Positions 10,875-51,868 of a stretch of 64,000 nucleotides of DNA are shown here, piece after piece. The notes beneath the pieces were generated by a model. The model was not told where the DNA came from, did no database searches, and worked only from the letters and a program-made list of their open reading frames with translations. The translations under genes were made by a program, and so were the position numbers. Location: positions 1 through 64,000 of the forward strand of contig JAUILP010000013.1 of assembly GCA_030432875.1 (NCBI GenBank), written 5' to 3'. The stretch's first letter is position 1. Every line of letters begins with the position of its first letter. The DNA comes from Oligoflexia bacterium. GTDB lineage: Bacteria; Bdellovibrionota_B; Oligoflexia; Oligoflexales; JAGOVF01.

Positions 10875-11442
10875 CTATTCTATTTCCTCCTATTGCTAGT
10901 TGAACCAAAAGTTGCAACCACCTAAGCCAACACCTTTGCTCCAGCGCTATTACTCGCCTTCATTGCTCATACATGTTGGTCCGCCCCAGTGCTTCGCATC
11001 TGTACTCTCACCCTCATACCTGTTCGTATTTGGGTTTCTCCATTATCATCGAAACGACTGGTTCCCGCAGTTCCGTGCAAAAGCCAGATCAGACTCACGC
11101 CACCTATACGCCGGTTGCCATCCACACAATCATCAGGCTCCCTGTGGACTCATCCCGGGCTATAGAAACGCTCCCGGTTTTGACAACATTCACTGGATTA
11201 CGACGCGTCAACAGTGGTTCGGGTTTACTCGTCTTTCTGATCCATACCTGCCTGAGATATTCTCCCAGTACTTTACTTCAACGCTCACTACCACGGCTTT
11301 TAACCACAGCAGCTTGAAGTGGTTTGACAGCCGTTCCTGAAAACCGATGTCGAAGGGCCAAACCTTCATCAATCGCACAGCTTCTAAGCACAAAGTTTTA
11401 GTTCATGGTATAAACCTCCTACTTTGTGCGCCTGCGGCGCAC
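10025..11442 (-). mobile_element. Group II intron, 5' part only
   Basis: The region upstream of the reverse transcriptase (10875-11442) is non-coding on the minus strand and folds like the start of a group II intron. It begins with the canonical GTGCG at 11442, closes a GTGCGCC/GGCGCAC hairpin and then a GCACAAAGT/ACTTTGTGC stem. Further on, GGAACTGCGGGAACC-type segments and a GTTGC-rich leader run up to the ORF. The 5' boundary is supported because homology of the host transposase gene ends exactly one base before it. No domain V or VI was found on the far side of the IS, so the intron cannot splice as it stands. The plus-strand ORFs at 10900 and 10973 are shadows of this RNA. Confidence 0.75.
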
Positions 11443-49426: not shown

Positions 49427-50530
49427 ATGCAAAACTCAGATGACTCTAAAGAGAGCCCCAAAACAATAAGTGGAGCAGAGACTGCTGCCAAAAATGAGTT
49501 ATTAATTCAGCTCGGTAAAAATTTGTGCGCTGCACGGCTGGCAGCTGGTTTATCGGTTAAACAAATTTCAGAAACAACCCGAATAAATAGTAGTTTTATT
49601 GAGTCCATTGAACAAGGAGACCTAAGCCAACTTCCGGGACTCGCTTTTGGCAGAGGGTTTATTGACTGCATTTGTAAGGAACTAAAGATAGAGCCAAAAA
49701 GCTTCCTAAATCTTTATGATGACTACATTAAAAGCAACCAACTCAATGACTTCAAAACTCTCGATCCCTGCAATAGCAACCACATTAGGCAGTCTTCAGA
49801 TGAGAAGAAAACCTTAAAGAATTTGAATCAATTTTGGAGTCCCTCAGAAAAAAACCGCGGCTTACTTAAAAATGGCGGCAACTATGTCACCTATTCCCTT
49901 TATTTTGCTGCGATTCTAGGGCTTTTCTTGATCACTTTTTCCTATTTTAAAAAAAATAAGCCCGTTACCCCAAATTCCGTCGTATCAGAATCTACAAACT
50001 CTATGGCACCCATCCCCGCTAATGAGATTGAAACTTTTACCGTATCTGATATCGCGGACACCCAGACAGAGGACCTCGCGCCCGTCGATTCAAACGGCGT
50101 GAACAGTCGCGTTGAGCCCCTAGCCCAAAATACCGGCAAGATTCCCGCGCCTGAAAATGCCCCAATCAGCCCCACTAAGCCTCAGGTGGGTGAGCAAAAA
50201 ACCTCACCGTCAGATTCCGCAGAAGATGAAAACCCCGCACCCACGGCTCAGGCTAAGACAACCGCATCAAAAAACACAATATATATTAAAGTCTTAGAGC
50301 CTTCAGATATCCGCCAACGCTGTGATGGAGGCGGTTATCAAACTAAGCGCTGGGAGCAGTCAGGTGAAATATCTTTTAATGCCGCCTGCGAAATAACTCT
50401 TTTTGATGCCGCAGCCGTAGAGCTTACTTTTAACGGTGCGCCTCTGGGCAACCTCGGCAATAAGAATATACGTAGAAATTTAAGCTTTTCAAACCAGCCG
50501 GTTAAATCTGCTGCCACACAAAAACTCTAA
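49427..50530 (+). CDS. rodZ: RodZ-like cytoskeletal membrane protein
   Basis: 367 residues. N-terminal helix-turn-helix of the RodZ type (GKNLCAARLAAGLSVKQISETTRINSSFIESIEQGDLSQLPGLAFGRGFI), then one membrane helix near 150-170 (YVTYSLYFAAILGLFLITF) and a Pro/Thr/Ala-rich periplasmic linker. The C-terminal DUF4115 domain is TIYIKVLEPSDI...GEISFNAACEITLFDAAAVELTFNGAPLGNLG. RodZ links MreB to the elongasome. The cytoplasmic part is a little long. No ispG or miaB neighbour, which often accompanies it. Confidence 0.88.
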   Translation: MQNSDDSKESPKTISGAETAAKNELLIQLGKNLCAARLAAGLSVKQISETTRINSSFIESIEQGDLSQLPGLAFGRGFIDCICKELKIEPKSFLNLYDDYIKSNQLNDFKTLDPCNSNHIRQSSDEKKTLKNLNQFWSPSEKNRGLLKNGGNYVTYSLYFAAILGLFLITFSYFKKNKPVTPNSVVSESTNSMAPIPANEIETFTVSDIADTQTEDLAPVDSNGVNSRVEPLAQNTGKIPAPENAPISPTKPQVGEQKTSPSDSAEDENPAPTAQAKTTASKNTIYIKVLEPSDIRQRCDGGGYQTKRWEQSGEISFNAACEITLFDAAAVELTFNGAPLGNLGNKNIRRNLSFSNQPVKSAATQKL

Positions 50531-50572: not shown

Positions 50573-50640
50573 TGGCGATTATTTAATGTAATAATAGAAA
50601 TTTTTTACCATTCGTCAAAACCTGATTTTTCAAAAGAACT

Positions 50641-50855
50641 TTAGTTTCGCTAACGCTCACCGAAAAGTTTTTTAGAGCTTCGGTTCTAAAGTGTGCGTAG
50701 ATAACCAGAGCAGAATGCTTTGCGCGAAGATGGTTGATATTGTGCGACCCATGGATGGGTCAAAATACCAGGAGGGTATTTTAATCTTCTACTTTATCTA
50801 TAGCCAATTTTTTTGCTACAAAACCGCAGAAACCTTTCTGCGGTTATTTTTTTTT
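50641..50855 (+). ncRNA. Candidate structured small RNA with GGA-loop hairpins
   Basis: Four tight hairpins follow one another and end in a textbook terminator. TTTAGAGC-TTCG-GTTCTAAA (50671-50690) has a UUCG tetraloop. AACCA/TGGTT (50703-50735) encloses a GCA-rich loop. GACCCAT-GG-ATGGGTC (50746-50761) and AAAATACC-AGGAG-GGTATTTT (50762-50782) both present GGA at the apex. The CATGGATG apex matches the CANGGA(T/C)G pattern bound by CsrA/RsmA. No credible ORF (the 71-residue ORF here lacks a ribosome site and crosses the terminator). Its start is not defined. CsrA-sponge function is inference. Confidence 0.6.
50822..50855 (+). terminator. Strong Rho-independent terminator ending the RNA candidate
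   Basis: AACCGCAGAA (50822-50831) pairs perfectly with TTCTGCGGTT (50836-50845) around a 4-base loop and is followed by A and nine Ts. Confidence 0.93.
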
Positions 50856-50992: not shown

Positions 50993-51868
50993 ATGCACAC
51001 CCATAAAATTGCTACCCTCATTTCAATTGATGAGGCCATGAAATATAGAGCGTCATTGGGCACCACAAAACGCGTTGCGTTTATCCCTACCATGGGCGCA
51101 CTCCACCAGGGCCACCTGAGCCTTGTGAGGAGAGCGCGAGAAGATAACTGCCTGGTCATCGTTTCCATATTTGTCAATCCCACTCAATTTGGTCCCAATG
51201 AGGATTTTTCAAAGTATCCACGCACATTAGAGCGCGATGTTTCCCTACTTTATCAAGAAAACATTGAGGCCTTATTTTTACCTAACACAGCAAACATGTA
51301 TCCGCCAAATTATAGCACTTATATTTCGCCACAAAGTATGGCGGCTGAGCTATGTGGCAAAACCAGACCACAACACTTTCAGGGTGTTTTAACTATTGTG
51401 TTAAAGCTTTTCAACATAATCAGACCACAGGTTGCCTATTTCGGAAAAAAAGATTATCAGCAATTATTTCTCATAAAAAAAATGGCTCTTGACCTCAATC
51501 TGGACATCGATATTGTCGGTGTAGAAACCTCCCGCGACCACGATGGCTTGGCTCTAAGCAGCCGCAACCAATACCTAACCAAAGAAGAGCGTGTGATCGC
51601 ACCACAAATTTATGCTGCCTTAAAAAAAGCAAAAGAGCAGGCACAGAGGGAAACCAAGTATAGAGATCCCGATCAAATACTAAAGGTTTTTTTAAAATCC
51701 CTAGAGCCTTATCCAGAGCTAAAGCTCGAATATGTAGAAATACGTCGTCAAGAAGACCTTACCCAAATCCACGAAGCATTCTTAGAGCCTGCCGTCATCC
51801 TTACTGCAGTTCGTTTAGGATCGACTCGGCTTATAGATAACATTGAAGTTGGTCCCTATGAAGCGTAA
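50993..51868 (+). CDS. panC: Pantothenate synthetase
   Basis: 291 residues. RVAFIPTMGALHQGHLSLVRRAREDN carries the two ATP-binding His residues of the HIGH-type motif (near 37 and 40). VSIFVNPTQFGPNEDFSKYPRTLERD, QHFQGVLTIVLKLFNIIRPQVAYFGKKDYQQLFLI, SRDHDGLALSSRNQYL (KMSKS-equivalent region) and VRLGSTRLIDN complete the pattern. It joins pantoate and beta-alanine. panB is 12 kb upstream. The plsB-like gene starts inside its last codons, so translation of the two is probably coupled. Confidence 0.97.
   Translation: MHTHKIATLISIDEAMKYRASLGTTKRVAFIPTMGALHQGHLSLVRRAREDNCLVIVSIFVNPTQFGPNEDFSKYPRTLERDVSLLYQENIEALFLPNTANMYPPNYSTYISPQSMAAELCGKTRPQHFQGVLTIVLKLFNIIRPQVAYFGKKDYQQLFLIKKMALDLNLDIDIVGVETSRDHDGLALSSRNQYLTKEERVIAPQIYAALKKAKEQAQRETKYRDPDQILKVFLKSLEPYPELKLEYVEIRRQEDLTQIHEAFLEPAVILTAVRLGSTRLIDNIEVGPYEA

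Follow-up and report, generated by a model that had tools for sequence, protein, structure and literature searches.

Results

A structured RNA gene lies between rodZ and panC

In a 64,000-nucleotide stretch of DNA from an Oligoflexia bacterium (hereafter, the window), a long gap separates a rodZ-like gene with an HTH_25 domain (49427–50530, plus strand) from panC, which encodes pantoate-beta-alanine ligase (50993–51868, plus strand). We asked what this gap encodes. The original prediction, made from the letters alone, had described a highly structured RNA with CsrA-type loops: a hairpin capped by UUCG, two adjacent perfect hairpins and a 10-bp terminator with nine Ts. All of these elements were found in place, and the 271-base region folded better than each of 200 dinucleotide shuffles (z = −3.8). 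The predicted transcript, delimited by the promoter and terminator positions and by homologues in 33 genomes, runs from 50670 to 50855 on the plus strand (~186 nt), with both neighbouring genes outside it.

The fold of this RNA can be described from its 5′ end, with all parts on the plus strand. P0, an 8-bp hairpin with the UUCG loop (50671–50690), is supported by folding and by P0-type hairpins in relatives. It stands 5′ of a basal stem, P1, in which UAGAUAA (50698–50704) pairs with UUAUCUA (50794–50800), a helix with compensated changes in relatives. P1 closes P2, a 7-bp hairpin (50706–50722) supported by folding and by relatives, together with P3, in which GAAGAU (50726–50731) pairs with AUCUUC (50784–50789). 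P3 in turn closes the twin hairpins P3b (50746–50761; GACCCA(TGGA)TGGGTC) and P3c (50762–50782; AAAATACC(AGGAG)GGTATTTT). Most relatives have ANGA in the P3b loop, and nearly all have ANGAN in the P3c loop. The intrinsic terminator (50822–50855) consists of a perfect 10-bp stem (50822–50845) followed by nine T. The hairpins and the terminator had been described correctly; the outer helices P1, P2 and P3, which tie the hairpins together, had been missed. In the window RNA, this comparative structure lies ~4–5 kcal/mol above the minimum free energy fold, whose outer part is somewhat different. Many species carry a further hairpin within P3, P3a, which is very variable in sequence and absent in other species; its tip in one g10 locus (L105) reads ACGGA.

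The RNA defines a family found across one order

A DNA search with the window sequence against 38 genomes, including relatives of the same order, returned only the window itself. We located the syntenic gap in same-order relatives via panC, and there a homologous RNA was clear by eye. Its core reads GUGCGGGCC-ANGA-GGCC, then GGAUUGCC-ANGAG-GGCAG, then AUCUCCUUACC, with an upstream GGAGAU that pairs with AUCUCC. Whole genomes were then searched with a covariance model, R1, which spans 77 positions of the core and was limited to 17 helix pairs because MAFFT shifts the outer stem of the window sequence by three columns. The model found exactly one copy in 33 of the 43 genomes of the window's order, with E values from 1e-7 to 1e-19, and none in the 15 genomes of the sister order, which represent other families of the class. 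The panC region of four relatives without the RNA gave no match to it even with the filters off.

Rfam contained no family that scored above threshold for the window RNA or anywhere near it, and six homologous loci gave no match at E values up to 2. The sole over-threshold Rfam match in the window is to Group II intron D1-D4 (RF01999), at 11246–11367 on the minus strand (94.8 bits). An unannotated regulatory RNA, perhaps a new one, had been proposed for the locus, and this proposal holds: the RNA is conserved in its stems, apparently transcribed independently, and assigned to no Rfam family above threshold. The best reading is that it represents a new family of structured small RNA, and not a CsrA decoy. 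Within the class Oligoflexia, the family is characteristic of a single order, probably the Oligoflexales.

Compensatory changes support the fold

In an alignment of the 33 sequences that was fitted to the model, and is hence biased towards it, 94.7% of the cells were paired, in comparison with 29–57% when the partners were slid by one to three columns. Of the 17 core pairs in the model, 13 carried two-sided compensatory changes, and none of 500 shuffles of this alignment reached the observed value for either pairing or two-sided changes. The outer pair P3 illustrates such a change: GGAGAU/AUCUCC, the form seen mostly in relatives, is GAAGAU/AUCUUC in the window.

As a check independent of the model, we aligned groups f9, f6 and f8 separately with MAFFT and analyzed each with RNAalifold. 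Each group gave P3, P3b and P3c. In f9, P0, P1 and P2 were recovered as well, the last two with changes on both sides of their pairs; f6 yielded the same three helices, P1 being without two-sided changes, and f8 yielded P2 and a partial basal stem (P1). With the six most divergent sequences, RNAalifold recovered P3, P3b and P3c only. When P1 strands were swapped between genera, using crudely set boundaries, foreign strands paired as well as the native ones in a median of 26% and a mean of 31% of cases. Compensatory changes across an entire order are much stronger support for the structure than the single-sequence shuffle test.

A sigma28-type promoter precedes most copies

The sequence TAAAG-N15-CCGA stands directly upstream of the RNA. 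It is exact in 23 of the 33 copies, against 0.05 expected from shuffles, and at least eight of its nine positions are present in 31 of the 33 upstream regions, against 1.1 expected, a count that includes the window through another, unlikely placement, such that good boxes at the homologous place number 30. At that place, the window carries TTTAG-N15-CCGA(AAAG) (50640–50663, plus strand), which agrees at seven of nine positions and has a degenerate −35 box. The consensus for sigma28 (FliA) is TAAAGTTT-N11-GCCGATAA, the spacing of which is the same as in TAAAG-N15-CCGA. The FliA-type promoter of Bdellovibrio has been given as TTAAG-N16-CCGATA (PMC3627812).

Genome-wide, TAAAG-N15-CCGA was enriched over a reversed control in f8 genomes (for example, 13 versus 1 and 21 versus 2) and in G005; the strict motif was not enriched over this control in either f6 or f9, nor in the genome of the window itself. 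Copies of the motif were found 5–100 nt ahead of most of the start codons examined. Flagellins of one subtype (MG(M/L)RIRTN-like) have TAAAG-N15-NCGA-like boxes ~80–92 nt before the ATG. The link to flagellin rests on this subtype, since the motif was not seen at flagellins of the MGLRIATN subtype. A related arrangement, TAAAGTT-N12-14-CCGAA, precedes many lipoproteins, Ser/Thr kinases, an HD-GYP-like protein and a pilin (G008, G019, G034 and G002; loci L177–L216), placements that suggest a non-flagellar sigma28 regulon like that of the Bdellovibrio attack phase. From the promoter sequences, the best reading is that the family is usually under a sigma28/FliA-type promoter in relatives and that the box in the window is degenerate.

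The window's genome keeps the RNA where FliA and FlhA are not found

The RNA co-occurs with flagellar genes in the order: flhA is present in 30 of the 33 genomes with the RNA versus 2 of the 10 without it (p = 4e-5), and csrA in 32 of 33 versus 4 of 10 (p = 2e-4), both by raw Fisher tests that ignore ancestry. In profile searches, FliA scored over the cut-off in 53 of 58 genomes. The window's genome, which is 95% complete, is not among them, and FlhA was not found there either. Since fliA lies next to flhA in relatives and the genome is incomplete to this extent, their joint loss to an assembly gap is possible. This genome is an informative exception, as it retains the RNA with compensated stems and an intact fold where FliA and FlhA were not found.

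A search of this genome for csrA, on which the CsrA-type reading of the loops depends, located it as csrA-fliW (L129, 1063–2067; G000, C87), kept despite the missing FliA and FlhA. The pair is flanked by an SBF-family transporter gene and a murA-like gene; csrA of the relatives lies near flagellin-like genes.

Alternative identities of the RNA

The CsrA-type loops had led to the proposal that the RNA is a small representative of the CsrB/RsmY functional class, in which hairpins tipped with GGA titrate CsrA/RsmA. The family does resemble CsrB, CsrC and RsmX/Y/Z in its serial hairpins, and some tips bear A(N)GGA: ANGGA occurs in P3b of the window and of G001, and GGA is found in 17 of 33 P3b loops and 11 of 33 P3c loops. 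The co-occurrence with csrA, and the retention of csrA-fliW in a genome where flagellar genes were not found, would also fit a decoy. However, GGA is neither enriched nor conserved in the family. An RNA of the family holds 5.2 GGA on average and its dinucleotide shuffles 4.9; the total in the window copy is two, against 2.5 in shuffles, and 12 of the 33 RNAs have none in either loop. Across the 33 copies, what the tips conserve instead is A-N-G-A, seen in almost every P3c loop and in the majority of P3b loops. The CsrA pattern was recognized in P3b of the window because the loop in its family, f1, is one base longer (AUGGAU, AGGGAU), and the extra base happens to create it. The Rfam models CsrB, CsrC, RsmX/Y/Z and TwoAYGGAY were all unmatched, genomes of the sister order carry csrA without the RNA, and csrA is tied to flagellar genes, which may alone explain its co-occurrence with the RNA. 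The assignment to the CsrB/RsmY class thus did not survive comparison with relatives, and we regard a CsrA decoy as unlikely. Contact with CsrA in f1 or f9 is possible, not as a conserved property; CsrA sequestration as the conserved function is not supported by the loop sequences.

Another possibility is a cis-acting leader of panC, in which an aptamer and a conditional terminator would together control pantothenate synthesis as a riboswitch or an attenuator. The rodZ gene is upstream of the RNA in all of the 33 loci except L097, and panC follows on the same strand in 29, that is, wherever panC is found in the locus. A strict scan detected a clear terminator in 7 of the 33 copies, and in several loci a terminator sits between the RNA and panC. 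In genus g15 (L119, L121, L123 and L124), the RNA has no terminator and its end is separated from panC by ~40–60 nt or less, so that the two may share one transcript by read-through; this short gap, too, is what a leader would predict. Of the four remaining loci, L100 reaches a contig edge, L114 and L122 have a plsB-like gene next, and L128 has another gene. The last three, all f11 genomes, retain the RNA with no panC within 1.5 kb downstream, which argues against its being only part of a panC leader transcript and leads us to treat it as an independent small RNA gene. A flagella-type promoter would moreover be odd for panC, in f8 and f6 separate sigma70-like boxes were seen by eye in the interval from the RNA to panC, and an unsystematic look noticed no antiterminator pairing. 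A panC leader is therefore quite improbable. We give slightly less weight still to an abundant RNA that binds a metabolite and so is the functional counterpart of the Bdellovibrio merRNA. That RNA was proposed to sequester c-di-GMP as a reservoir, in a broadly related bacterial group in which FliA-type promoters precede some attack-phase small RNAs (PMC3627812), and the RNA described here is likewise highly structured and not bound to a downstream gene. Unlike merRNA, it has no match to the c-di-GMP-I riboswitch, or to any other riboswitch family in Rfam, and the letters that it conserves are mostly those of hairpin tips, with no obvious ligand pocket. Least probable, to a degree that we consider remote, is a GcvB-type base-pairing RNA that depends on Hfq. 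GcvB (RF00022) has a pair of central hairpins and then a terminator, and gave the best sub-threshold Rfam match of the window, spanning two hairpins and the terminator (26.8 bits, E = 3e-4 per 271 bases). This falls short of the gathering score, 42 bits, and was obtained in the window only, none of the six homologous loci having an Rfam match, and the identity was dropped.

Discussion

We consider it likely that the locus belongs to a new sigma28-linked family of trans-acting structured small RNAs, ~140–190 nt long and present in one copy per genome. A literature search found no small RNA described for this bacterial order. Small RNAs that depend on sigma28 are described elsewhere, such as CjNC1 and CjNC4 of Campylobacter and those of Escherichia coli (PMC4626219, PMC11187230, PMC10578931). 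As far as these reports describe them, they share with the present family a FliA-type promoter and a flagellar link, and they are mostly base-pairing or UTR-derived RNAs, unlike the RNA between rodZ and panC, which is compact and multi-branched and conserves its twin hairpins.

In most relatives, FliA-RNA polymerase would make the RNA together with the motile-phase regulon, and the RNA would accumulate in swimming cells; judging from the promoters, flagellated relatives very likely express it along with the motile programme. A protein would then read the two A-N-G-A loops presented side by side, and activity or translation would be adjusted at the switch between motile and non-motile states. 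The RNA probably acts in trans through a protein; that this protein reads the twin ANGA loops themselves is a tentative suggestion of the model, and base-pairing with mRNAs or metabolite binding may take the place of such a reader. In the window's organism, the fold is retained, the −35 box has decayed and FliA and the flagellar export gate are apparently lost, so the RNA would be run from another promoter and have a role beyond flagella. We lean towards the use of another promoter there, and the role of the RNA in this organism probably does extend beyond flagella. More speculatively, and with less confidence than any of these parts, the RNA could represent an undescribed class that offers adjacent ANGA loops to a dedicated RNA-binding regulator and so links the flagellar sigma factor to the motile-to-sessile switch. 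Flagella-less lineages would keep such an RNA under a new promoter, the regulator having other targets.

These results add a family of RNA that is well supported, is missing from Rfam and extends across an order of little-studied bacteria related to predatory ones; its promoter connects the family to the flagellar programme. The window's genome, in which FliA and FlhA were not found and both csrA-fliW and the RNA are kept, amounts to a natural experiment. Given this genome and the flagellar promoter, the role of the RNA and its candidate protein partner are directly testable.
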